DNA of 64,000 bases, taken from contig JANWYJ010000039.1 in assembly GCA_025055115.1 (NCBI GenBank), forward strand, positions 62,001 through 126,000, given 5' to 3'. Positions within the stretch are counted from its first letter, which is position 1; each line of letters begins with the position of its first letter. This DNA comes from Gemmata sp. (lineage in GTDB: Bacteria > Planctomycetota > Planctomycetia > Gemmatales > Gemmataceae). Shown piece after piece: positions 14,550 to 31,064 of the stretch. The notes under the pieces are model-generated. The model worked only from the letters and a program-made list of their open reading frames with translations. It did not search any database and was not told the DNA's origin. The position numbers were made by a program, and so were the translations under genes.

Positions 14550-17500
14550 TCAGGTTCCCGAAATCTCAGTCGCCGGGGTCTCGGCGCTGATGGCAGTTTC
14601 GCCCTCCGGCAGGTTGATCTTCACTTCCGCCTCTTGGTGCGTCTTGAAGCCAGTTCCGGCGGGGATCAGGTGGCCCAAAATCACGTTTTCTTTGAGGCCG
14701 ACCAGATAGTCCACTTTGCTTGCCAAGGCCGCCTCGGTGAGGACCTTGGTCGTTTCTTGGAAGCTGGCCGCCGAAATGAAACTATCGGATTGCACCGCGG
14801 CTTTGGTGATACCCAACAGTTGCACTTCGCACGTCGCCGGCTCGGGAATAACGAAGGTCGCTTTCTTTTTCTTTTTATCGAGGGCGTTTTGCTCTTCTTC
14901 AAAGGCCTCGCGGCTATAGACACGCCCGGCCACCAGCGACGTATCACCGGGATCGACCACCTTGACACATTCTTCGGTCAGGCGGCGATTGACCTCGTTG
15001 AAGGCGAATTTGTCCATGACGGCACCGGGAAGTAACCCCGTGTCGCCAGTGTGGAGGACTTTCACTTTGCGAAGCATTTGCGCGACGATGATTTCAATGT
15101 GTTTATCGTCGATTTCTACCCGTTGGGAGCGATAGACCGACTGGACCTCGCGAACGAGGTATTCTTGCACTTCGCGTTCGCCCCGGATGCGGAGAATGTC
15201 GTGGGGGACCAGCGGTCCGTGGACCAGCGGGTCACCGTGTTTGACATATTCCCCGGTGTGGACGCGCAGGTGGGCGCCCGCGGGGACTTGGTGTTCGCGG
15301 ACCTCCCCATCGGACTTGCCATCTTCACTTTCGCGGATGATCTGAATGATCCGTTTGCCGCGTTTGCGGTTGGGGTCGATCTTCACCCGACCGGAAATCT
15401 CGGCCATGACGGCCGGGTTGCGGGGACGGCGGGCTTCAAAAAGTTCGGTCACACGCGGTAAGCCCCCGGTGATGTCTTGGGTTTGTGAAACCTCCCGCGG
15501 GGTTTTCGCCAACAGTGTACCGGCCGTAACTCGTTGGCCATTCTGAACTTGCAAGTTCGCCCGCTCGGGAATGTAGTAGACTTTGTCCTCACTTCCCTTC
15601 TCGCCTTTGATGATGATCTGCGGGTGCAGATCGCCTTTGTGCTCCATGATGGTCATCCGGACCACGCCGGTGGCTTTGTCCAGCTCTTTGCGGACCGTAA
15701 CGCCTTCCTTGATGTCCTTGTATTGCACGATCCCGGCTTCTTCTGCCAACAGGGGCACCGAGTGGGGGTCCCACTTGACCAGAGTTGTGCCGGGGGCCAC
15801 TTCCTCCCCTTCTCGGACGAAGACTTCGGCCCCGTTGGGTACGGCGTAGCGCTCCACCACCGGGCCGCCTTCGCCACGTAACAGCAGCAGCTCACCGGTT
15901 TTCGCCAGCGCGATATTTTGGCCCTGTTCGTTGGTGACGACTTGGACTCGTTCGAATTGGACAATGCCACCTTTTTTCGCCTTATGCTCGCTATCGACCG
16001 CGGCACCGCGACCGGCGACACCGCCGATGTGGAAGGTCCGCATCGTCAGTTGGGTTCCGGGTTCGCCGATCGACTGGGCGGCGATAATGCCCACCGCCAT
16101 CCCTTCTTCGACCATCGCTCCAGTGGCGAGGTCCATCCCATAACACAATTGGCAAACACCCAGAGGGGCTTGGCAGGTCATGGGGCTGCGGACGGAAATT
16201 TTGTCGATACCGAGCTTTTCCAGTTCCTTGGCCTTGGCCGGGGTGATCATTTCGTTTTCGGCCAGAATGACTTCCCCGGTCGTGGGGTGGGTGATGGCAT
16301 TGCGGCTGACGCGACCGCGAATAGCCTCGGACAGCGGCCGATCGACCTCATCGCCTCGGTACATGACCCCCTTGCTGATCCCTTGGGTTGTCCCGCAGTC
16401 GTGCATGGTGATGACGACATTTTGGGCCACGTCGGCCAATTTCCGCGTCAGGTAACCGCTGTCGGCAGTTTTTAACGCGGTGTCGGCCAAGCCTTTGCGG
16501 GCACCGTGGGTGCTGGAGAAGTATTCCAACACCGTGAGGCCTTCACGGAAGTTGCTCTTGATGGGGGTTTCGATGATGGCTCCACTGGGTTTGGCCATCA
16601 GGCCGCGCATCCCGGCCAGTTGGCGGATCTGTTCAATACCGCCGCGAGCGCCGGAGTGAGCCATCAGGTAGATGGGATTCAGGTAGGGCACTTCTTTACC
16701 CGTCACGGGGTCTTTGCGCCGGTCGTTGGCCAGGTCGGCCATCATCTTTTTGGTGATGAGGTCGCGGGCTTCCATCCAGGCGTCGATCACTTTGTTGTAC
16801 CGTTCGATGTCGGTGATGACGCCGCGTTCAAAGTTTTTGCGAATCTTTTCGACCTCTTGGTCTTTTTGGCGCAAAACTTGCTCTTTGTTGTCCGGCGTCC
16901 GCAAATCGCTGGCGGCAAACGACAGGCCGCTTCGGGTCGATTCGCGAAAACCGGTATCCTTCATGCGGTCGAGCAGCGCAATGGTTTCGCGGCGACCCAG
17001 AAGTTGGTAGCAGTCGGCAATGATGCGGCTGAGGTATTTGCTCGAAAGCGGTAGATCGTAGAAGGCCATCTTGGGGTGCAAGATATCGTTGAAGATGACA
17101 CGACCAACCGTGGTCCGCACCAGGCCATTGGGTTTGCGGGGCAATTCTTCCGCCCGGGTGCTGCCTTTCTCATCTTTGACTTCACTGATGACCTTCTTGT
17201 CGATGGGCAAGCGAACACGGATTTTCGCGTGCAGACCCAGTTTGCCTTCGGCATGGGCTTGGAAGACTTCCGCCGGGCTGTGGAAGACCATACCATCACC
17301 TGGCTCGACGGCTTCATCCTCGCCACCACGGTTGGCCGTCAGATAGTAACAGCCCATCACAATGTCTTGTGACGGCGTGATAATCGGGTTGCCATTGGCG
17401 GGGCTGAAAATGTTGTTGGTCGACATCATCAACACCGTGGCTTCGACCTGCGCTTCGATGGAAAGCGGCAGGTGAACGGCCATTTGGTCGCCGTCGAAGT

Positions 17501-18923
17501 CGGCATTGAAGCCTTTGCAGACCAGCGGGTGAATGCGGATGGCGTTGCCTTCGATCAGCACCGGCTCGAAGGCTTGAATGCCCATGCGGTGCAAGGTGGG
17601 GGCACGGTTGAGCAATACCGGGTGCGACTTCGTCACTTCTTCGAGGATATCCCACACCACCTCATCTTTGCGTTCCAGCATTTTCTTGGCCGATTTGATG
17701 GTATCGGCATGTTGCAACTCTTTGAGGCGGCGGATGATGAACGGTTGGAACAACTCCAAGGCGATTTTCTTGGGCAGGCCGCACTGGTGCAGCTTGAGTT
17801 CCGGCCCAACTACGATGACGGAGCGGGCCGAGTAATCAACGCGCTTACCCAGCAAGTTTTCGCGGAAACGACCTTGCTTGCCCTTGATCATGTCGGTGAG
17901 GGACTTCAGCGGACGATTGCTGCTGCCCAAAACCGGTCGTTTGCAACGGTTGTTGTCGAACAGGGCATCCACGGATTGTTGCAACATTCGCTTTTCATTG
18001 CGAATGATGACTTCCGGAGCGTTGAGGTCCACCAATTTCTTGAGGCGGTTGTTCCGATTGATGATGCGCCGGTACAGGTCGTTGAGGTCGGAGGTAGCGA
18101 AGTTGCCGCTATCGAGCAACACCAAGGGGCGCAGGTCGGGCGGAATGACGGGGATGCATTCCAGCACCATCCATTCGGGTTTGTTGCTGCTGTCGCGGAG
18201 CGCTTCGACAGTTTTGAGGCGTTTGACCAACTCTTTTTCGCGTTGTTTGGAGCGTTTTTCGCCTTTTTGCATTTCCTTATCGAGCCGTTCGCGCAATTCC
18301 CGCGACAGTTCGACCAAGTTGAGCCGTTCTAAGAGTTTTTTAATCGCCTCCGCCCCCATATCGACTTCAAAGGCATCGCCATGCTCCATGCGGAGGGCTT
18401 TGTACTCTTCTTCATTGAGCAGTTGCCGTTCTTTCAGCCCCGTGACTTCTTTATCGCCCGGATCGATGACAACGTAGTCTTGGAAGTAGATGATCTTTTC
18501 CAAGTTCGTTGTTTTCATGTCCAGCAGAGTACCCAGGCGCGACGGCATGGCCTTGAAAAACCAGATATGTACGACGGGAGCGGCTAACTCGATGTGCCCC
18601 ATGCGTTTGCGGCGAACCCGGCTGTGCGTGACTTTCACGCCGCAGCGATCGCAGATCATGCCTTTGTACTTCATGCCGCGGTACTTGCCGCAGGAGCATT
18701 CCCAGTCTTTTTCCGGGCCGAAGATTTTCTCACAGAACAGGCCATCTTTTTCGGGCCGGTAGGTGCGGTAGTTGATGGTTTCGGGCTTTTTGACTTCGCC
18801 ATGCGACCACGAGCGGATGTCTTGCGGGCTGGCCAGCGAGATACGCACCGCTCCGAAATCGTTGATGCGTTCGTAGGTGGAACCTTCGGTATCGGCCATA
18901 TTTTTGAGATTGGCGGTGGACAT
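14550..18923 (-). CDS. rpoC: DNA-directed RNA polymerase subunit beta'
   Basis: The catalytic large subunit of RNA polymerase, 1457 residues. The N-terminal zinc site is visible as C-S-C-G-K-Y-R-G plus C-D-R-C-G-V (about residues 70-90), and the Mg-binding catalytic loop NADFDGDQM is near residue 480. The second zinc site appears as C-x-x-x-x-x-x-C-Q-L-C-Y-G in the C-terminal half. The ATG at 18923 has GGGAG at -8; an in-frame reading to 18971 adds 16 residues without support. Spacing from rpoB is 146 bp, with an 8-bp stem in the gap. Identification is certain. Confidence 0.97.
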
Positions 18924-18972
18924 AATCAGCTCCCTAGGGGAGATGGTGAGGGTGTTCGGTTCGGGGTCCATT

Positions 18973-19006
18973 GGAGGGCCACGTCACGCGAACGCTACGG
19001 CCCTCC
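18973..19006 (-). promoter_or_regulatory. Hairpin in the rpoB-rpoC spacer
   Basis: GGAGGGCC (18973-18980) and GGCCCTCC (18999-19006) are perfect complements around an 18-nt loop. In the minus-strand transcript it lies about 50 nt before the rpoC start. Role unknown; RNA processing or translational control are options. Confidence 0.35.
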
Positions 19007-19069
19007 TGGATTTGCGATTAGGGGTGCGGTGTCTCGATTATGAACACAGGTTCATTTGCCGACACCGGC

Positions 19070-22000
19070 TCAAAGACGCTTCTTTTCCAAGCACATGTTC
19101 AGACCCAGACCACGGATTTCGTGGGTAAGAACGTCGAAACTCGCGGGTGTGCCCGCTTCGAGGGTGTTTTCACCTTTCACCATGCTCTCATAAATCTTGG
19201 TCCGACCTTCAACATCGTCGGACTTGACCGTGAGCAGTTCTTGCAGGATGTAGGCAGCGCCATAGGCTTCGAGAGCCCACACTTCCATTTCCCCAAACCG
19301 TTGACCGCCGAAGCGGGCTTTACCGCCGAGCGGCTGCTGGGTGATGAGTGAGTAGGGGCCGGTGGCTCGGGCGTGGACTTTGTCATCGACCAGATGGTGC
19401 AGTTTGAGCATGTAGATATAGCCGACCGTCACCGGCTGATCGAACGGTTCGCCCGTGCGGCCATCGTACAGGATGGTTTTGCCGGTTTCCGACAAGCCAG
19501 CTTCCTTGAGGGCTTGGCGGATTTCTTCCTCGGTCGCCCCATCGAAGACTGGGGTAATGGCCTTGAAGCCCAATTTGGCCGCCGCGTAGCCCAAGTGCGT
19601 TTCCAGAATCTGGCCGACATTCATCCGCGACGGCACCCCCAGCGGGTTGAGCAGAATATCCACAGGGGTGCCGTCTTTGAGAAACGGCATATCTTCTTCC
19701 GGCAGAATCTTGGAAATCACGCCCTTGTTGCCGTGGCGACCGGCCATTTTATCGCCCACCGAGATGGCCCGTTTGGTGGCGACGTAGACCTTGACCATTT
19801 GTTGGACACCGCTGGGCAGTTCATCGCCGCGATTGAGCGAATTGAGTTTCCGCTCTTGCTCGTCGATGAAAAATTGGATGCGTTCCCAGTGGCGGTGGTA
19901 GATTTTCTGGGCTTTCTTTTGGTTGTCGGGGCTGCGGATATCGAGGTTTTCGAGCTTGAAGTTTTTGGCTTGCTCGGCAACGGTACGATCGTCCTTATCC
20001 GCCGCCAGTTGTTTGCCGCTGTGGGGGTCTTTGAGTTCTTTTTTGTCGAGCACTTCCTCCAACGCCCGGACAAACTCGCGGAATTGTTCGGCGATGCGCT
20101 TGTTGTAGGTGGTCTCGATTTCCTTGCGTTCTTTGTCGATTTGCTTCTTCTCCTCCTCGCTCATGTGAGCGCGGCGGCTGAAGCGGTGCGCAGCGATGAC
20201 GATACCCTCGGTGCCCGACTGCACCTCGAGCGAATCGTTTTTGACATCTTCCCCGGCACGACCAAAGATGGCGTGCAGCAGTTTTTCCTCCGGGGTCAGT
20301 TCGGAGCGCGACTTGGGCGATACTTTCCCCACCAGAATGTCCCCCGGGCGAACGTATGTGCCGATTTGGACCACACCGTGTTCGTCGAGGTTGGCGAGGG
20401 CTTTGGGGCTGACGTTGGGAATATCGCGAGTGAACTCCTCTTTGCCGAGTTTGGTTTCGCGAATTTCGATATCGAATTCTTCAATGTGAATCGACGTATA
20501 GGTATCGTTTTTGACGAGCCGCTCCGAAATGATGATCGCATCTTCGAAGTTGTAACCTTCCCAACTCATGAAGGCGACCAAGACATTGCGGCCCAGGGCC
20601 AGTTCGCCGTTCTTGGTGGCGGCACCGTCGGCGATGATCTGCCCCTTCTTGACCCGCTGGCCCAAGCTGACAATCGGCTTTTGGTTCAAGCAGGTGCGTT
20701 CGTTCAACCCGTGGTATTTGCGTAGCACATACTCGCGAACGATCTTATCCTTCTCTTCGATTTTGATCCGTTCGGCATCGACATAAACGACCGTGCCATC
20801 TTCTTGGGCTTTGACGAGCATCCCCGAGTGCTTGGCCACTTCTTTTTCCAGACCGGTAGCGACCAGGGGTGGCTCGGTGACCAACAGTGGCACCGCCTGA
20901 CGCTGCATGTTGGAACCCCTCAGCGCCCGGTTGGCGTCGTCGTGTTCCAAGAAAGGGATCAGGCCCGCGGACACACCGACCATCTGTTTGGGCGAAACGT
21001 CGATGTACTGAATTTTGTCCGCCGGGATCAGTTGCAGTTCGCCATTTTGCCGCCCACTGACCCGTTCTGCGACGATGCGGTCGCCTTCGGTGGGGGTGTC
21101 CGCGGGGGCCAACACCGCCGTTTGCTCTTCATCGGCCCGCAACTTGACAATCTCATCGGTGATCTTCTTGTTCTTGACCCGTTTGTACGGCGTGATCAAA
21201 AAGCCGTAGTCGTCGATTTCGGCATAGATTGAGAGCGACGAAATCAGCCCGATGTTCGTTCCTTCGGGGGTTTCGATGGGGCAGATACGGCCGTAGTGGG
21301 AGATGTGGACGTCGCGGACTTCGAAACCGGCCCGTTTGCGATTCAACCCCCCCGGCCCCAAGGCGGAGAGCCGGCGCTCATGGGTCAATTGCGCCAGGGG
21401 GTTGGTCTGGTCCACCACCTGGCTCAACTCACTGCGGCCAAAGAAGTATTCGATGGCCGCGGAAACGCTTTTGGGATTGATGAGCGAGCGGGGCGTCATG
21501 TCCTGTTGGTCGCGAATCGCCATGCGCTCCTGAACGGTGCGGCGCAGTTTCAGGAACCCTTTGCGTAGCTCATCGGATGCCAATTCGTCGATAGTCCGTA
21601 AGCGCCGGTTGCCCAAGTGGTCGATGTCATCGATGTGACCTTTGCCGGCGCGAAGATCAAGCAGATATTTGATCGAATTGACAAAGTCGACGCTTCGCAG
21701 CGTCATTTCCGATTCTGCAACGTGTTGGTTGAATTTGCGATTGATGCGGAAGCGCCCCACGCGGCCGAGGCGGTAGCGGTTGGGGTCTTGGAACTTTTCG
21801 CGGAAAAGCTCCTTGGCTTTTTCCAATTGCGGCGGGTTGCCGGGCCGCAGGCGCTGGTAAATTTTCAGCAGCGCCCCTTCGTGGGAATCGGCTTGCGTTC
21901 CCGTAGCGACATCTTCCAGAATCGAGTTGAGCAAAATTTCATCTTTCGGGTGCGGTATCACGAGCAATTCGTGAATCTGGGAAGCCATGATTTTGTCCAC

Positions 22001-22825
22001 CTTCTCCGCGGTGAAGGGTTTACCCGCGTCGAGGTAGACTTCGCCGGTCTCCGGATCGATGACATCGTCGGCCGCGATCATCGGCGGCACACCGTTTTCC
22101 GGATCGCCCACGAGCCGTTGCCGGGCATCTTTGGCTTTGAGTTTGATTTTTTCGGTTTCGTAGAACTCTTGGAGAATGCTGGCCGTGGTGGAATACGCGG
22201 GGTCCATCGCACGCAGAAGGGTGATGGCGGAGAATTTCCCGCTTTGGTCGATGCGCACGCCCAGGGTATCTTTTTTGGTCGCGTTGATTTCGATCCAGGA
22301 ACCGCGTTCGGGAATGATGCGGCAGGAGTGCAAGTCTTTGTCGGCCTCGCGCGTGACGACGAAGTCCACGCCCGGCGAACGGTGCAGCTGCGAGACAACC
22401 ACCCGTTCCGCCCCGTTGATGATGAATTCGCCCCCGCCAATCATGATGGGCATATCGCCCAGGTATACTTCTTCTTCCACCGCGGTGCCATCAGAGCGGC
22501 GCAAGCGCAGCCAGACCCGGAAAGGGCGGCCGTAGGTGAGGCGCAGTTGCCGGCATTCATCGGGGTCGTAACGGGGTTTGCCCAATTCGTAGCGGATGTA
22601 TTCCAGGGAGATTTTCTTGTCGTAACTTTCGATCGGGAAAATCTCTTGCAAAACGCCCTCCAGTCCGATAGGAGCGCGTTTGTCGTAAGGGACATCCAAT
22701 TGCAGGAAGCGCGCATAGGCCCGCGTTTGCACCTCGGTCAAATCGGGGACTTCCACAGCATCGCCAAAACGGCCGAAGTTTCGGACAGTGGTCGGAGTGA
22801 TGATGCGTTGGGCCGGGATTGGCAT
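19070..22825 (-). CDS. rpoB: DNA-directed RNA polymerase subunit beta
   Basis: The second large subunit of RNA polymerase, 1251 residues. The rifampicin-pocket region is clear: [17 protein letters not shown] with the residues equivalent to Escherichia coli Asp516, His526 and Ser531 all unchanged, followed by the invariant R-x-S-A-L-G-P-G-G-L and [13 protein letters not shown]. The C-terminus carries [18 protein letters not shown]. The start ATG at 22825 has GAGG at -9. It is separated from rplL by an unusually long 600-bp gap. Confidence 0.97.
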
Positions 22826-25976: not shown

Positions 25977-26016
25977 TTAGTCTTCGACCACCTGTCTATT
26001 AGCCTTCGACCACCTG
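25977..26016 (-). repeat. 22-nt tandem repeat of the rplK 3' end
   Basis: TTAGTCTTCGACCACCTG (25977-25994) repeats TTAGCCTTCGACCACCTG (25999-26016), which is the last codons and TAA of rplK. One base differs; offset 22 nt. The copy keeps V-V-E-D-stop in frame. Confidence 0.8.
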
Positions 26017-26466
26017 AATACCCATGCTCCGGGCAGTCCCTTCGATAATCCGCATGGCGTGGTCAACATCGCGCGCGTTGAGGTCCGCGAGCTTTTGCGT
26101 GGCAATATCCCGCACTTGTTTTTTGGTCACCGTGAATCCTTTGTACTTGCCCGCTTTCTTGGCATCGGCGGGGATGACTTCTTTCCCGGCCTTTTTGGCA
26201 TGGGGTATTTTCGCGGCCAACTTCAGCAGAACAGCCGCCGGCGGACTTTTGATTTTGAACTCAAAGCTGCGGTCGGAGTACACCGTGATCACCACCGGCA
26301 GCATCAGCCCTTTCAGCTCGGGTTTATTGGTTTTATCGTTGAACTGCTTGACGAACATGCCGATGTTGACGCCGTGCGCACCCAAAGCCGGGCCAACGGG
26401 GGGAGCGGGCGTTGCCGATCCGCCGGGGCATTGCAACTTCACTTGTGCCGTCACTTGTTTCGCCAT
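25999..26466 (-). CDS. rplK: 50S ribosomal protein L11
   Basis: L11 forms the base of the GTPase-associated centre with 23S rRNA. The 155-residue sequence has the proline switch region [16 protein letters not shown] near residue 20, followed by F-V-K-Q-F-N-D-K-T, and the C-terminal rRNA-binding [11 protein letters not shown] short basic insertion ([15 protein letters not shown]) precedes the V-T-K-K-Q-V segment. rplA follows 253 bp later on the same strand. Identification is certain. Confidence 0.96.
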
Positions 26467-26525
26467 GATTCCACCTGTACGCGGGTGAGACGGAACATTC
26501 TAGATGTTTCACGGCCTGGTGGCAT

Positions 26526-26576
26526 CGGCCAATACAACGGAAATTGGCCGGCCGCCGATGACCCTCGCTGGAGGGT
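26526..26576 (-). promoter_or_regulatory. Two consecutive hairpins in the nusG-rplK spacer
   Basis: On the minus strand, ACCCTC/GAGGGT (26561-26566/26571-26576, loop 4) is followed by CGGCCAAT/ATTGGCCG (26526-26533/26543-26550, loop 9), both perfect. They lie 60-110 nt before the rplK start. Candidates for an attenuator or for the L1 autoregulatory site known in front of rplK in other bacteria; sequence alone cannot decide. Confidence 0.4.
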
Positions 26577-26580
26577 GGCG

Positions 26581-26700
26581 TGTCAAATCTTCTCCCCGTG
26601 CGGAGCATGCCGTTGGATTTTGTCCGAGCCTCATCCTCATTCCAACTGGCGTTCGCCCGCTGTTAAATCTTCTCGACTTGGGAAGCATCCAGTTCGACTT
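26581..26700 (-). repeat. 40-nt degenerate direct repeat of the nusG 3' end, offset 80 nt
   Basis: Bases 26661-26700 (last nusG codons and TAA) recur at 26581-26620 with 30 of 40 identical. The copy keeps E-K-I and has TGA instead of TAA. Confidence 0.75.
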
Positions 26701-28189
26701 CGAGCGGCCGGCCCCAGAACGTTAGCTCCACTTTCACTTTGGGCGTGTCGGTGGGGTCTTTCACTTCGGAGATTTCCTTGACTTCGCCCTCATTGTTGAT
26801 GAACGAACCTTCGCGGATGCGGACACGATCACCTTTTTCAAAGTCGAGTTTGAATTTGGCGCGTTTGAGCGGGTCTTTGACGGTGATTCCGGTGAGCATC
26901 GATTGGACTTCATGCTCGGGCATGGGTTCCGGCACCGGGGGTTTGCCCCGCATATTCAAAAAGTCACCAACCCCACTGGTTTCGCGGAACAAATACAAAA
27001 TCCGGTCGTTGAACTCCAACTCGGCGAAAATATAACCGTGGAACTTCTTCTTTTTCTTGGTGACCTTCCGCTCCTGCGTGGTGTATTCCCCGGTTTTTTT
27101 GTCCTTGATCCGCACCATTTTCTTCTCAACCACTTCCTCCACCGGGATGACGATTTGCCCAACGTACTGTTCTAAGCCTTCGATCGCGACTTTGCGAAGA
27201 ATGGCGGCTTTGATAGTGTCTTCCCGGCCACTTTGAACTTTGATGGCGTACCACTTCTTTTTGTTTTCCGGAGGCGGCTCTTCGACCGGCACCGGTGCCG
27301 AGGGGGCAGCAGCAGGGGCTTCTGCCACGGCAGCTGTCACTGGTTCGCTGGTCGCGGCCTTTTTGCGGGTGCGCTTCGGTTTGGCCGGTGACTCCGGCGG
27401 CGTGGCGGCAACGGCGGTAGAAGGTTCCGCCGGCTCGTCTTGCACAGGCGCCGGCTGTTCGGGCACTTTCTGCGTAAATTCTGATCTGACCGAGACTTCC
27501 ATTGAATCTGCCGCTGCCTCCGCAGCGCCGTGGGTGGCAGTGGGTTCTTGGGGCACTTCTGCGGGTCCAGAAGTGGCCGCCGCGGCGAGCGGCTCTGACA
27601 CATCGGCCGTTGGTTCCTCCGGGGCCGCAGTCTCTTGCGATATCTGGGAAGTTGCCGGGCGGTCCAATGGTGGGACAGCCTCGGGACCACTCATGATGTC
27701 CCTGGGAGAGGACTCCGCACCTTGGGCCGTCACCCCTGGGGGCGTCTCACTCGAGAGAGTTGCCGCGGTGACCTCCGATTGCGATGCTCGATGCTCACTG
27801 ATGGTGGGAACCATGCTGGCCGTTGTGGTGTCGGCTTCTGGCACTTTCGTAACCACGGTTTGTTGGTGATCAGCGGAAACGTTTTGTGAATCAGCTTTTA
27901 CGTCAAAAGCGGCTTCGTGATTCTTGGATGCGATGGCTGGCGCCGGAGTCGCCACGGATTCGGTGGCCGCTGCGGCAGGCACCGATGGGGGCAATGACTC
28001 AGGGGGTGTCGCGGGGGGCGTCACCGGTTGTGGTTCATGGGGTGGCTGGGGAGTGGCTACAACCGAAGATGTTTCTTCACCGGAGTTTACGCCAAGGGAC
28101 GCTGAGGGCATAGCCGCCCCCTGGGTCGCGTTTTCCGCCGTTGATGGCGAGCGTTGCGGTTCATGGGTGGTGGCGGTTTCATCAGTCAT
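26663..28189 (-). CDS. nusG: Transcription termination/antitermination factor NusG with a giant disordered N-terminus
   Basis: NusG binds RNA polymerase and modulates pausing, Rho termination and ribosome coupling. The canonical part starts near residue 310 with K-K-W-Y-A-I-K-V-Q-S-G-R-E and includes I-P-V-E-E-V-V-E (NGN domain), F-H-G-Y-I-F-A-E-L-E, and the KOW domain F-E-K-G-D-R-V-R-I-R-E-G-S-F near residue 455. Total length is 508 residues, against about 180 in the family. Residues 1-309 are Ala, Pro, Thr, Glu and Ser rich, with no hydrophobic segment or repeat unit, and end in a basic patch (K-P-K-R-T-R-K-K). A Lys-rich insertion (K-V-T-K-K-K-K-K) also interrupts the NGN domain. The frame is uninterrupted from 28189, so the extension appears coding; the exact start is uncertain because the ribosome binding site is weak. 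Confidence 0.9.
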   Translation of the reverse strand: MTDETATTHEPQRSPSTAENATQGAAMPSASLGVNSGEETSSVVATPQPPHEPQPVTPPATPPESLPPSVPAAAATESVATPAPAIASKNHEAAFDVKADSQNVSADHQQTVVTKVPEADTTTASMVPTISEHRASQSEVTAATLSSETPPGVTAQGAESSPRDIMSGPEAVPPLDRPATSQISQETAAPEEPTADVSEPLAAAATSGPAEVPQEPTATHGAAEAAADSMEVSVRSEFTQKVPEQPAPVQDEPAEPSTAVAATPPESPAKPKRTRKKAATSEPVTAAVAEAPAAAPSAPVPVEEPPPENKKKWYAIKVQSGREDTIKAAILRKVAIEGLEQYVGQIVIPVEEVVEKKMVRIKDKKTGEYTTQERKVTKKKKKFHGYIFAELEFNDRILYLFRETSGVGDFLNMRGKPPVPEPMPEHEVQSMLTGITVKDPLKRAKFKLDFEKGDRVRIREGSFINNEGEVKEISEVKDPTDTPKVKVELTFWGRPLEVELDASQVEKI

Positions 28190-28226
28190 CGGAACTCGGC
28201 CACAGGGCCGCCTCCAGGGGTCCGCG

Positions 28227-29186
28227 TTACCACTTCACTTCTTGGAATTGACCAGCCTTCTCGGAGGTGGGCGCCGCACTGGGGAGCACGCCGACATAAC
28301 GATTGCTCAGCAACCATCCCCAGAACAAGTCGACCACAAGTAAAAAGATGGTCAGAAGCAGGGTGGTAATCAGAACCACGACCGTATCTTGGGCGAGCCG
28401 TTTGCGGGTGGACCACGACACTTTGTTCATTTCCGCTTCAGTAGCAATCAGGAACTCCGCGAAGGTGGGAACGTTGACGGCCCGCCAAGCGATCCACAGG
28501 GTGAGCAGAAAGATGAGAGCCGGAATGACTTCCGCGGCATTGTTCATGACGACGATAGGTTCCAGACCAAAAGGCATCGTCATGGTCCAGCGATTGGGCA
28601 ATAGTCCTTGGAACCAGAGCGTATAAGCCCCGCTGGCGCCGATCAGCAGAATCCCCAAAATGGTGAGTCGGCGGACCCGCAAGCCGAGCGAACGTTTGTA
28701 GTGATGGGTGGAGAACCAACCCTGCTCCTCCAAGCTGGTCATCCACCGGTTCCCCGTGGAGCCAGTGAACAGTCGAACCGCCAAAAACAGCAAAACAAGG
28801 CCGATAACGCCCCCGAGCACCTGCCCGGCGACGCCATCAAAAGCCAAGGCGAACTCACGCACGATGAGAAAGATGAGGGCCGCGGTCACGAGCATCAGAA
28901 AGACCCCGGCGCGGGTGCCCACCGGTACATTATCCTCCGCCAAGCGCGTACCAAACCAGACCAGCCCCCCCGTGACCAGCGCTAAGGTCGGAAGCCAGAA
29001 AACCCAGTCGAGGAAGTTGTCACGGATGTGGGGGGTAACATGCTCCACCCAGATGCGCGGCAACAGGTACGACACCACCGCCAGCACCGCGACAACATAA
29101 ATCGCCCCCAGGAAGCTGGCGATCGGCAAACTGAGGGTTTTGTGGGGGGTACTGGGTGCGGAACTGGGTTCGACGGCGGTGGCCAT
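28227..29186 (-). CDS. secE: Preprotein translocase subunit SecE with a large polytopic N-terminal extension
   Basis: SecE clamps SecY in the protein-conducting channel. The conserved SecE core is only the last part of this 319-residue protein: F-L-I-A-T-E-A-E-M-N-K-V-S-W-S-T-R-K (amphipathic helix, about residue 245) and the following single membrane helix ending near residue 300. Ahead of it are about seven further predicted membrane helices (residues 20-235), with a short soluble loop near residue 155 (T-S-L-E-E-Q-G-W-F). Typical SecE is 60-130 residues. The gene sits between tRNA-Trp and nusG, the expected place, which supports the call. Whether the extension belongs to the translocon or is an accessory membrane domain is unknown. 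Confidence 0.88.
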   Translation of the reverse strand: MATAVEPSSAPSTPHKTLSLPIASFLGAIYVVAVLAVVSYLLPRIWVEHVTPHIRDNFLDWVFWLPTLALVTGGLVWFGTRLAEDNVPVGTRAGVFLMLVTAALIFLIVREFALAFDGVAGQVLGGVIGLVLLFLAVRLFTGSTGNRWMTSLEEQGWFSTHHYKRSLGLRVRRLTILGILLIGASGAYTLWFQGLLPNRWTMTMPFGLEPIVVMNNAAEVIPALIFLLTLWIAWRAVNVPTFAEFLIATEAEMNKVSWSTRKRLAQDTVVVLITTLLLTIFLLVVDLFWGWLLSNRYVGVLPSAAPTSEKAGQFQEVKW

Positions 29187-29232
29187 ACTCCATCCTCGCT
29201 GCGGAGTGTTGCAATGCGTCCGTAGGGGGGTC

Positions 29233-29278
29233 TCTCTGGGCTAGTGTAGCTACTCTGTCTCTGGGCTAGTGTAGCTAG
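29233..29278 (-). repeat. 25-nt spaced tandem repeat upstream of secE
   Basis: TCTCTGGGCTAGTGTAGCTA occurs at 29233-29252 and 29258-29277, identical, offset 25 nt, between tRNA-Trp and secE. Confidence 0.75.
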
Positions 29279-29450
29279 TATGAACCAACCGGCCGCCAAA
29301 TCGGGCGAACCCGGTTCAGCGGCCGGCGGCGATCGCGTGGCAATCTGTTGTGCGTTATCCGCAACGCAGCCGTGTCCGGCTGGGTGTCGGCATTCCGGCA
29401 TCGGGTTGAGCCGACTCGTCGTTGGGTGCAGGTCGCGGAACTTCCAACAG

Positions 29451-29522
29451 CACGAGCGGAGGGATTTGAACCCCCAACCGGCGGTTTTGGAAACCGCTGC
29501 TCTACCGTTGAGCTACGCTCGT
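29451..29522 (-). tRNA. tRNA-Trp (anticodon CCA)
   Basis: Cloverleaf on the minus strand: acceptor ACGAGCG/CGCTCGT, D arm GCTC/GAGC, anticodon stem GCGGT/ACCGC with loop TTCCAAA (anticodon CCA), T arm with TTCAAAT. Discriminator G. The 3' CCA is not encoded. It lies between tuf and secE, as in many bacteria. Confidence 0.95.
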
Positions 29523-29586
29523 AACCGGGGCCGGATCACGGACTGCTGTACTCTTCAGGAGTAGACATCGCCAGCAGTCATTGTCG

Positions 29587-29631
29587 CTGAGGACGTTCTA
29601 CAAGGCTAGGCAGACCGTGGGTAGTCCTCAG
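29587..29631 (-). terminator. Possible hairpin downstream of tuf
   Basis: CTGAGGAC (29587-29594) and GTCCTCAG (29624-29631) are perfect complements with a 29-nt loop, 45 nt after the tuf stop on the minus strand. No U-run, so read-through to tRNA-Trp and secE is plausible. Confidence 0.3.
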
Positions 29632-29675
29632 TGCCCCATGTGGGTCTTGGGGCGGTCGGTGTCGCTACGGTGGTT

Positions 29676-30977
29676 TCAGGCGATGATCTTGGTCACCACA
29701 CCGCTACCGACCGTCTTTCCACCTTCGCGAATCGCAAAGCGGAGGCCTTCATCCATAGCTACTGGCATGCCTTCCATCAATTCGACGTTGATCTTCACGT
29801 TATCGCCGGGCATACACATTTCCACACCCGGCGGCAAGGTAATCGTACCGGTCACGTCGGTAGTACGGAAGTAGAATTGCGGTTTGTAGCCGCTGAAAAA
29901 CGGCGTATGCCGCCCACCTTCATCCTTGGACAGAACGTAGATATTGGCTTCGAACTTGGTATGCGGCGTGATGCTGCCGGGTTTGGCCAACACTTGCCCG
30001 CGTTCGACGCCATCTTTTTCAATACCCCGCAGAAGCACCCCCACGTTGTCGCCGGCGATCGCTTTTTCGAGGGTCTTTTGGAACATTTCGATGCCGGTGA
30101 TCACCGTCTTGACGTTGTCTTTGCGCAGGCCGATGATTTCGACTTCATCGCCGACTTTGGCCGATCCGCGTTCGACCCGTCCAGTGGCCACGGTACCCCG
30201 ACCTTTGATCGAGAAGACGTCTTCCACCGACATCAAGAACGGCTTGTCTTCGTCGCGCTGCGGCAGCGGGACATAGGTATCGAGGGCAAACATCAAGGCA
30301 TCGATCGACAACGAGCCATCGTTTTCGGTGGTCGGGTTTTCCAGGGCTTCCTTGGAGCGGCCATAGATGATGGGAATGTCATCCCCCTTGAACTCGTATT
30401 TGCTCAACAGGTCGCGCAGTTCCATGACGACCAGCGGAATCAGTTCCGGGTCGGCCTTATCGCATTTGTTGAGGTAGACGACGATGTTGGGCACCCCCAC
30501 CTGTTTGGCCAACAGGATGTGTTCGCGCGTCTGGGGCATGGGGCCGTCGTCGGCCGCGACCACCAGAATCGCCGCGTCCATCTGGGCAGCCCCGGTGATC
30601 ATGTTCTTGATGTAGTCGGCATGACCGGGGCAGTCGATATGGGCGTAGTGCCGGCCTTTGATAGTTTCAGCGTAGTTGATTTTGTCGACGTTGGGATAGT
30701 CCAGCAAGTGCTTGAACGGCAGAGCATCGGCTCCACTGTAGGTCCGGTCGTTCGATTCGTACTCGACATGCGACACCGCGATGGTAACGGTTTTATTGGC
30801 ATCCCGAACGATACCGCCTTTGGCGATCTCGGCGTAGGTTTTGACCTCTTTGATTTTGTTGAGGTGCGCATTACGAGCCAGGATCGCCGCTGTCAGCGTG
30901 GTTTTGCCGTGGTCAATGTGGCCAATCGTGCCGACGTTCACGTGCGGTTTGGTCCGTTCGAAGATCCCCTTTGCCAT
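29676..30977 (-). CDS. tuf: Elongation factor Tu with an altered switch I and an effector-region insertion
   Basis: Delivers aminoacyl-tRNA to the ribosome. G motifs GHIDHGKT (19-26), D-C-P-G-H (115-119) and N-K-C-D are present, and domains II and III are canonical ([23 protein letters not shown]). Two features stand out. Switch I, normally R-G-I-T-I, reads K-T-V-T-I at residues 62-66, keeping only the Mg/GTP-contacting Thr. Between S-H-V-E-Y (69-73) and R-H-Y-A-H-I-D-C there are about 35 residues where Escherichia coli has 4. The G5 loop is G-R-S instead of G-S-A. Total 433 residues against about 395. I recall the switch I form from other planctomycetes; the insertion may be specific to this lineage. 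Confidence 0.94.
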
Positions 30978-31064
30978 CGCTTGCCTCGCTCCTGTGTGGA
31001 GTTAACAACGGGTTAATACTCAGTGTGAAAAGCCCATTCATTGGCCGCCGCGACCAGCGGCGAG

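Follow-up and report, generated by a model that had tools for sequence, protein, structure and literature searches.

A housekeeping NusG with a long, predicted disordered acidic N-terminal arm and a conserved leader hairpin in a Gemmata-type planctomycete

The nusG gene in a 64,000-nucleotide stretch of DNA (the window) encodes the housekeeping NusG of a Gemmata-type planctomycete, extended at its N-terminus by a 309-residue acidic arm that is almost certainly disordered according to structure prediction. The explanation that we consider best for the whole, with a probability of about 0.5, is that a housekeeping NusG gained this arm, that its translation would begin at a split ribosome-binding site, and that a basic patch within the arm would make a contact with the remainder acting as a spacer. 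The arm makes the window NusG a new form of a known protein and a bacterial parallel to the acidic tail of eukaryotic Spt5.

Results

NusG core and genomic context

The open reading frame (ORF) at 26663..28189 (-), taken from the ORF list and examined by profile searches, encodes 508 amino acids from an ATG start and is present exactly as a sequence-only reading of this DNA had described it, namely as a NusG with a long N-terminal arm. The NusG core is made up of the C-terminal 199 residues, from about residue 310. Positions 1-172 of the 172 in the NusG profile TIGR00922 aligned to residues 313-508 (E = 5e-32), and NusG structures were the best Foldseek matches of the AlphaFold model. The NGN domain (residues 311-431; 26897..27259 (-)) was identified as that of NusG by its match to Pfam PF02357 (57.2 bits, cut-off 22.2) and by a model pLDDT mostly above 90. 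The KOW motif (residues 452-477; 26759..26836 (-)) scored 16.3 bits with PF00467, below the cut-off of 22.3, and was folded in the AlphaFold model; its assignment as the NusG KOW is given by the alignment of TIGR00922 to its last position and by about 200 columns of the model aligned on NusG structures. With the NGN domain above its cut-off, the profile aligned end to end and the KOW motif folded, the core is intact, as had been claimed. By homology, these two domains would carry out ordinary NusG work on RNA polymerase.

The gene order around nusG is tuf - tRNA-Trp - secE - nusG - rplK - rplA, with tuf and rplK named by eye. The secE gene (28227..29186 (-), profile searches) encodes 319 aa, rplK (L11; 25999..26466 (-)) is the next gene downstream of nusG, and rplA (L1; 24837..25757 (-)), assigned by profile search and alignment, has a low-complexity N-terminal arm of its own of about 100 aa. 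Given that secE precedes nusG, that ribosomal protein genes follow it and that the only PF02357 match in the window's genome is the window nusG itself, the encoded protein is the housekeeping NusG. In all these respects, as in the combination of NGN and KOW, it agrees with bacterial NusG. It differs by the disordered acidic arm, by a TIGR00922 score of 111.1 bits, which is under the NCBI naming cut-off of 135.7, and by a longer basic beta-hairpin in the NGN domain. This extended hairpin, placed at about residues 350-381 (27047..27142 (-)) from the alignment and the model, lies at the alignment site where Aquifex NusG has extra residues, and among the 17 sequences displayed it was 30-36 aa long in some family members and 18-23 aa in others.

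Two further observations were made on these genes. The window SecE has a large extra N-terminal region before its SecE domain at residues 244-294. Five genomes of the same genus (G013, G016, G019, G020 and G022) contain additional, shorter NusG-like matches elsewhere (frames of 182-265 aa), and no such extra match was found in the window's genome.

Composition, disorder and charge of the arm

The arm (residues 1-309; 27263..28189 (-)) was characterized by composition, AlphaFold and charge shuffles. It consists of 19% alanine, 15% proline, 11% threonine, 10% glutamate and 10% serine, confirming the composition first read from the sequence, and its 43 acidic residues (D+E) against 15 basic ones (K+R) give a net charge of -28. 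From one sequence alone, AlphaFold produced a poor model (mean pLDDT 41.8), and a run with 39 sequences supplied the model used. Here the block means of the arm were 38-59 up to residue 300, without helix or strand, while the core blocks were mostly above 90 with the lowest at 68. The prediction leaves little doubt that the arm is disordered, in agreement with the original description.

The genus comprised 19 genomes, of which the 17 with a full NusG locus were counted; G014 (no match) and G021 (weak match only) were left out, and given that the 17 genomes are related, the counts over them do not represent independent events. The net arm charge was between -12 and -38 in 17/17 same-genus proteins, and each of these arms was lower in net charge than all 300 shuffles of its whole nucleotide sequence. 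The other two forward frames of the arm DNA were positively charged and contained stops. A stricter shuffle, preserving the base composition of each codon position, already yielded a negative arm charge by itself, and the real arms were more negative than the mean of this shuffle in 17/17 cases, by 0.6 to 4.6 sd (window 1.9). This small excess indicated that base composition per codon position explains much of the sign of the charge. The comparisons among relatives nevertheless showed an arm that, at the level of its sequence, evolves fast but has been kept net negative and low in arginine and lysine outside one basic patch.

A compensation between the charges of an acidic arm and a basic core was considered and rejected as phylogenetic. 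The raw Spearman correlations with core charge over 64 proteins were 0.73 for arm length and -0.59 for arm charge, and they disappeared under independent contrasts (r = 0.06, 0.15 and 0.08; sign-permutation p = 0.57, 0.28 and 0.36).

A basic patch at a restricted distance from the core

A charge scan and the alignment of relatives located a basic patch, defined by a net charge of at least +4 over 12 residues, at residues 267-278 (SPAKPKRTRKKA; 27356..27391 (-)). The sequence-only reading had the arm ending in such a patch; the patch was found, but the core begins only after 31 further residues. The window and its nearest relative (L074) share the stretch PAKPKRTRKKAAT without any change, with an identity of 46% over their aligned arms and 99% over their cores. 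Exactly one patch per arm was present in 16/17 same-genus arms, the exception being L064, and in each of the 16 arms the patch charge was reached by at most 5/1000 shuffles of residues within the arm.

In these 16 arms the distance from the patch to the core was 24-66 residues (median 33) and the part of the arm distal to the patch was 58 to 266 residues long. Total arm length followed the distal length (rho = 0.92) more than the proximal length (rho = 0.47, p = 0.065), and the coefficients of variation were 0.55 for the distal and 0.34 for the proximal part, showing that, in the sequences compared, the distance of the patch from the NGN domain is less variable than the remainder of the arm. 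Outside the genus, the patch was absent from many arms.

Distribution of NusG arms among planctomycetes

Within the genus the arm was 96-309 aa long (17 proteins), and in 47 other family proteins, with the start taken as the first ATG or by eye, it was 32-206 aa long and always net negative. These numbers derive from 71 family proteins, from which L008, L013, L018, L024, L029, L030 and L080 were dropped due to an undecided start or a contig end, and the starts of nine further family proteins were chosen by eye. The comparison across Gemmataceae that the sequence-only reading had suggested accordingly gave arms of 32-309 aa, net negative throughout. The arm in the window is the longest among those measured; the nearest relative (L074, genome G023) and L154 (contig CALDUT010000010.1) have a 281-residue arm with the same N-terminus. 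Seventeen more family genomes had a PF02357 match with best-match frames of at most 370 aa, which leaves no room for an arm of the window's length.

Among 38 relatives read, for length only, from the best 80 of 231 in named genomes, the arm lengths by first ATG outside the genus included 113 in Limnoglobus roseus, 89 in Singulisphaera acidiphila, 119 in Tautonia sociabilis and 159 in bacterium Pan216. Among the 30 best-scoring NusG loci from the wider phylum, 22 begin at most 4 residues from the core, acidic extensions of 11-129 residues are present in five (L045, L049, L051, L053 and L055), and three others (L032, L042 and L052) are preceded by arginine-rich, net positive frames that were taken for false starts. 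On the evidence of these sequences, the NusG arm is a lineage trait.

Start codon and translation of the arm

The start codon of nusG was placed at 28187..28189 (-). After the first ATG of the open frame, residue 3 or 4 is D or E in 17/17 same-genus proteins. In 5/5 arm pairs of relatives, whose cores are 92-100% identical, the third codon position differed most, as in L062/L063 with 0.146, 0.126 and 0.223 at the three codon positions, dN 0.141 and dS 0.351. The dN/dS values of the arms are rough, given that an alignment guided by protein is biased towards little change at the first two codon positions and that dS was saturated in several pairs. The open frame, which had originally been put forward as support for translation, is by itself a weak argument since the DNA is GC-rich and one antisense frame is also open or nearly open in many same-genus arms; the conclusion drawn from it is very probably right, and the conserved start together with the leader described below lends it stronger support at the sequence level. 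The acidic, frame-specific composition, the D/E at residue 3 or 4, the third-position divergence and the leader all suggest that the distal ATG is the likely start, and on these sequence features the arm is very probably translated.

If the true start were instead located just before the NGN domain, the arm would not be made, and this case had been named at the outset as the one that would overturn the idea of a translated arm. It agrees with the start of 22/30 NusGs from other planctomycetes at most 4 residues from the core, with three GTGs in the last 40 arm codons of the window, and with one GTG each behind a Shine-Dalgarno (SD)-like motif in the same region of L063 and L069. These two GTGs are not in a shared place, however, and no start codon within the final 40 arm codons is shared among the 17 same-genus arms, 7 of which have no start codon there at all. 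The three GTGs of the window have no SD-like motif in front, and no promoter-like site was found within the window arm, although this last test is a weak one. Taken together with the protein-like divergence of the arm and the distal start and leader conserved in 17/17, this makes a start near the NGN domain extremely improbable, and we retain the distal ATG.

A conserved hairpin between the Shine-Dalgarno motif and the start codon

The SD motif GGAGG of nusG (28211..28215 (-)) can pair with the 16S 3' end of the same genome (GGATCACCTCCTTTCT), and between this motif and the ATG lies a conserved hairpin, CGGCC-CTGT-GGCCG (28197..28210 (-)). The spacing between SD and ATG in the window is 21 nt when linear and 7 nt when the hairpin is folded. 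The same layout, an AGG followed by a perfect 5- or 6-pair stem closing a loop of 3 or 4, with 6-9 nt from there to the ATG, was found in 17/17 same-genus leaders and in two leaders of the neighbouring genus g37 (L079 and L081, added to the set for looking alike); two other g37 loci, L078 and L080, had no such layout or were missing the upstream sequence. The SD-AUG distance in the 19 leaders was 20-25 nt linear and 7-9 nt with the hairpin folded. As SD motif, the 17 leaders from the genus had either GGAGG or GAGG and L079 and L081 had AAGG, with CCTCC in the genome's own 16S. Two features of the split ribosome-binding site of phage T4, an SD complementary to 16S and an over-long spacing that a folded hairpin corrects, were found in these leaders.

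The loops took 17 distinct forms over the 19 leaders, and all changes in the stem were pair-keeping: pair 2 went from GC to AT once, pair 3 from GC to GT once and pair 5 from CG to AT in six leaders, and pair 6 was CG, TG or TA. As a background, a stem of this size occurred at 78/5054 positions of the arms' own DNA, although the criteria applied to the leaders were less strict (any AGG within 34 nt and a gap of 0 or 1). A covariance model scored the nusG leader at 38.7 bits in the window's genome, with the next site at 21.0 (150 scored of 6116 first-look candidates). With 73 candidates scored per genome, 13 of 95 family genomes matched, with one site each, and all 13 were sequences from which the model was built. 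Four leaders with 6-bp stems were missed at that threshold; in a search of the nusG loci themselves they scored 17.9-22.2 bits, and a chance match inside L090 reached 16.5. Covariation on the 13 leaders with the same stem was weak, with one compensatory cell that was reached by 40/500 shuffles, and the case for the leader therefore rests on the 19 leaders with their variable loops. The idea that the leader is a widespread genome motif was rejected, as a loose pattern occurred 18 times in the genome against 35 times for the reversed control. In four leaders (L064, L065, L075 and L076) a second small hairpin was seen just before the SD.

In the proposed mechanism the SD would be followed by the small conserved hairpin, 6-9 nt and the ATG, and folding of the hairpin would shorten the SD-AUG distance. 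The sequences and their pair-keeping changes are observed directly, and the function of a split site is drawn from the precedent of phage T4. In genes 38 and 25 of this phage, according to the excerpt of PMC3014915 available, a hairpin between SD and AUG likewise shortens an over-long spacing, and destabilizing it lowers initiation. The hairpin described here differs by being chromosomal, located before a housekeeping gene and genus-wide, and its role would be analogous. We consider it probable, by this analogy, that a split ribosome-binding site directs initiation at the distal ATG.

The main rival is that the hairpin belongs to an operator hiding the SD (autoregulation, or a temperature or protein switch) and is not a spacing device, since in the window and several relatives the predicted fold of lowest energy has part of the SD paired to the spacer. 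This lower pairing is variable, being weak or absent in L062, L075 and L076, whereas the stem follows the SD in 19/19 leaders counted, and we therefore regard an SD-hiding operator as rather unlikely. Compared with dinucleotide shuffles, the fold energy of the leader was not extreme (window z = -0.84; same-genus leaders from about -3.2 to +0.1). An intrinsic terminator was rejected, as no terminator-like site was found at the leader, where secE ends, and a search for known RNA families within 26000-31000 returned only a tRNA. To our knowledge, translation starts set by RNA folding are known only from phage T4 genes, and the nusG leader is a chromosomal, genus-wide candidate for this type of control.

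Arms on neighbouring proteins and Rho

Of the 33 ORFs with 300 aa or more in the window, 28 were scanned for low complexity, and five overlapping others were left out. The longest low-complexity stretches were those of nusG; L1 had one about 100 aa long, shorter ones occurred in a few other ORFs, and none was found in SecE, EF-Tu or two large ORFs at 14550-22825. L11 was found in 33 sources and aligned from the first residue in these.

Three Rho paralogs were distinguished in the genus by score band, with Rho1 in 16/19, Rho2 in 17/19 and a shorter third one in 15/19 genomes (Rho1, loci L120 and L126-L140; Rho2, L121, L141 and L144-L153; Rho3, L122). Both Rho1 and Rho2 have arms with short basic patches. 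An xFxxGIVD motif was present in 13/16 Rho1 read, preceded by a basic N-terminal stretch; two others run off the end of a contig, and L131 had no such motif in the frame read. All 12/12 Rho2 arms read contained a [KR]RxxRK patch. As side observations, the Rho1 arm looks disordered and its xFxxGIVD sits after an acidic run, the N-terminus of Rho2 is armed in a manner unlike that of Rho1, and Rho3 is without the N-terminal part of the profile.

A search for the histone fold PF00808 gave no match in the window's genome. An HU protein with a long basic tail was also looked for and not seen in the two HU-family loci.

Discussion

Every domain of life has retained NusG/Spt5, and the window NusG adds to it a layout resembling that of Spt5. 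The excerpts seen of PMC8886531 call an acidic tail before the NGN domain unique to eukaryotic Spt5 (Spt5N) and tie it to chromatin, and they describe in Spt5N a conserved motif of three residues that binds histones. In those seen of a NusG review (PMC7819879), Spt5 is credited with an acidic N-terminal region, and the text of this review nowhere uses the word 'extension'. The window arm shares with Spt5N an acidic, largely unstructured tail directly before the NGN domain. It is rich in A, P and T with one basic patch and, given that the genome lacks a PF00808 match and hence this histone partner, it was not counted as a member; we infer a separate origin of the two. With the Spt5N layout in a bacterial lineage, and with this genome devoid of a PF00808 histone, nature provides a test of what such a tail does without nucleosomes.

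Extra residues before the NGN domain are also present in Mycobacterium tuberculosis NusG (8eos_G, 238 residues), which aligns to the window NusG from its residue 21; compared by length, that stretch is much shorter than the window arm. Other actinobacterial NusGs also have N-terminal extensions. A literature search, of a scope that leaves most subscription journals outside, returned no paper on a planctomycete NusG arm.

As for the work of the arm, the patch may be a weak nucleic-acid or ribosome contact on a leash of 24-66 residues, probably to upstream DNA or emerging RNA, and a longer distal acidic part would act as an entropic spacer that keeps this contact weak and off other nucleic acid. 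Tethering of other factors by the arm, as put forward in the sequence-only reading, is plausible, and the more specific assignment of the patch as a nucleic-acid contact is tentative, with chances that we put somewhat short of even. The strongest rival is that the arm is translated but has no specific job, being a tolerated low-complexity accretion and a by-product of a lineage-wide lengthening of tails. An arm length that varies from 96 to 309 aa in one genus with fast sequence turnover fits with this, as do the part of the negative charge that codon-position composition alone provides and the arms of Rho1, Rho2 and L1, which show that the trend is not specific to NusG. The trend does not, however, extend to SecE, EF-Tu or the two large ORFs at 14550-22825, which have no such stretch, or to L11, and the charge sign, the single patch and the reach of the patch from the NGN domain have all been kept. 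We therefore judge it unlikely that the arm is without a job and prefer the patch contact with an acidic spacer.

More elaborate functions were also weighed. By analogy with Rho of Bacteroides thetaiotaomicron, where a disordered region with short charged motifs drives condensation according to the excerpt seen of PMC13269538, the arm could serve termination by bringing NusG, Rho1 and RNA together in condensates or in a local tethered assembly, which extends to Rho the condensate idea of the sequence-only reading. Rho1 of the genus shows a similar plan to the Bacteroides protein, in which these charged motifs are conserved, and the xFxxGIVD and [KR]RxxRK elements of Rho1 (13/16) and Rho2 (12/12) are in line with this possibility. 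In Bacteroides, however, the region is on Rho and condensation was shown, whereas here the arm is on NusG and the likeness is one of sequence; moreover, genome G011 (L064) lacks the NusG patch but has the motif in its Rho1, so that there is no simple co-loss. Such an assembly thus appears improbable. An arm working like Spt5N, by capturing basic nucleoid proteins displaced by the polymerase, would be in keeping with the identical position before the NGN domain, the acidity and the disorder (the excerpts of PMC8886531 cited above), but with the one histone-fold family searched, PF00808, unmatched in the genome and with the better of the two HU-family matches having no long purely basic tail, we regard it as very unlikely. 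The most far-reaching proposal combines several of these elements: Planctomycetia would have evolved, independently of eukaryotes, a Spt5N-like acidic arm on NusG and, on two Rho paralogs, arms that match it. On the elongation complex these arms would build a network patterned by charge, as a tethered or condensed hub for termination that suits the nucleoid of Gemmata, and the genus-specific split ribosome-binding site would set the dose of the NusG arm. We hold this combination to be a shade less probable even than the condensates themselves.

With three Rho paralogs, of which at least two are armed, the termination machinery of the genus is worth direct study; short disordered regions are mentioned for Gemmata obscuriglobus Rho in the excerpt seen of PMC11829017. 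The N-terminal arm of L1 (25450-25757) ends in a basic stretch as well, and much of this arm aligns in the L1 of relatives.
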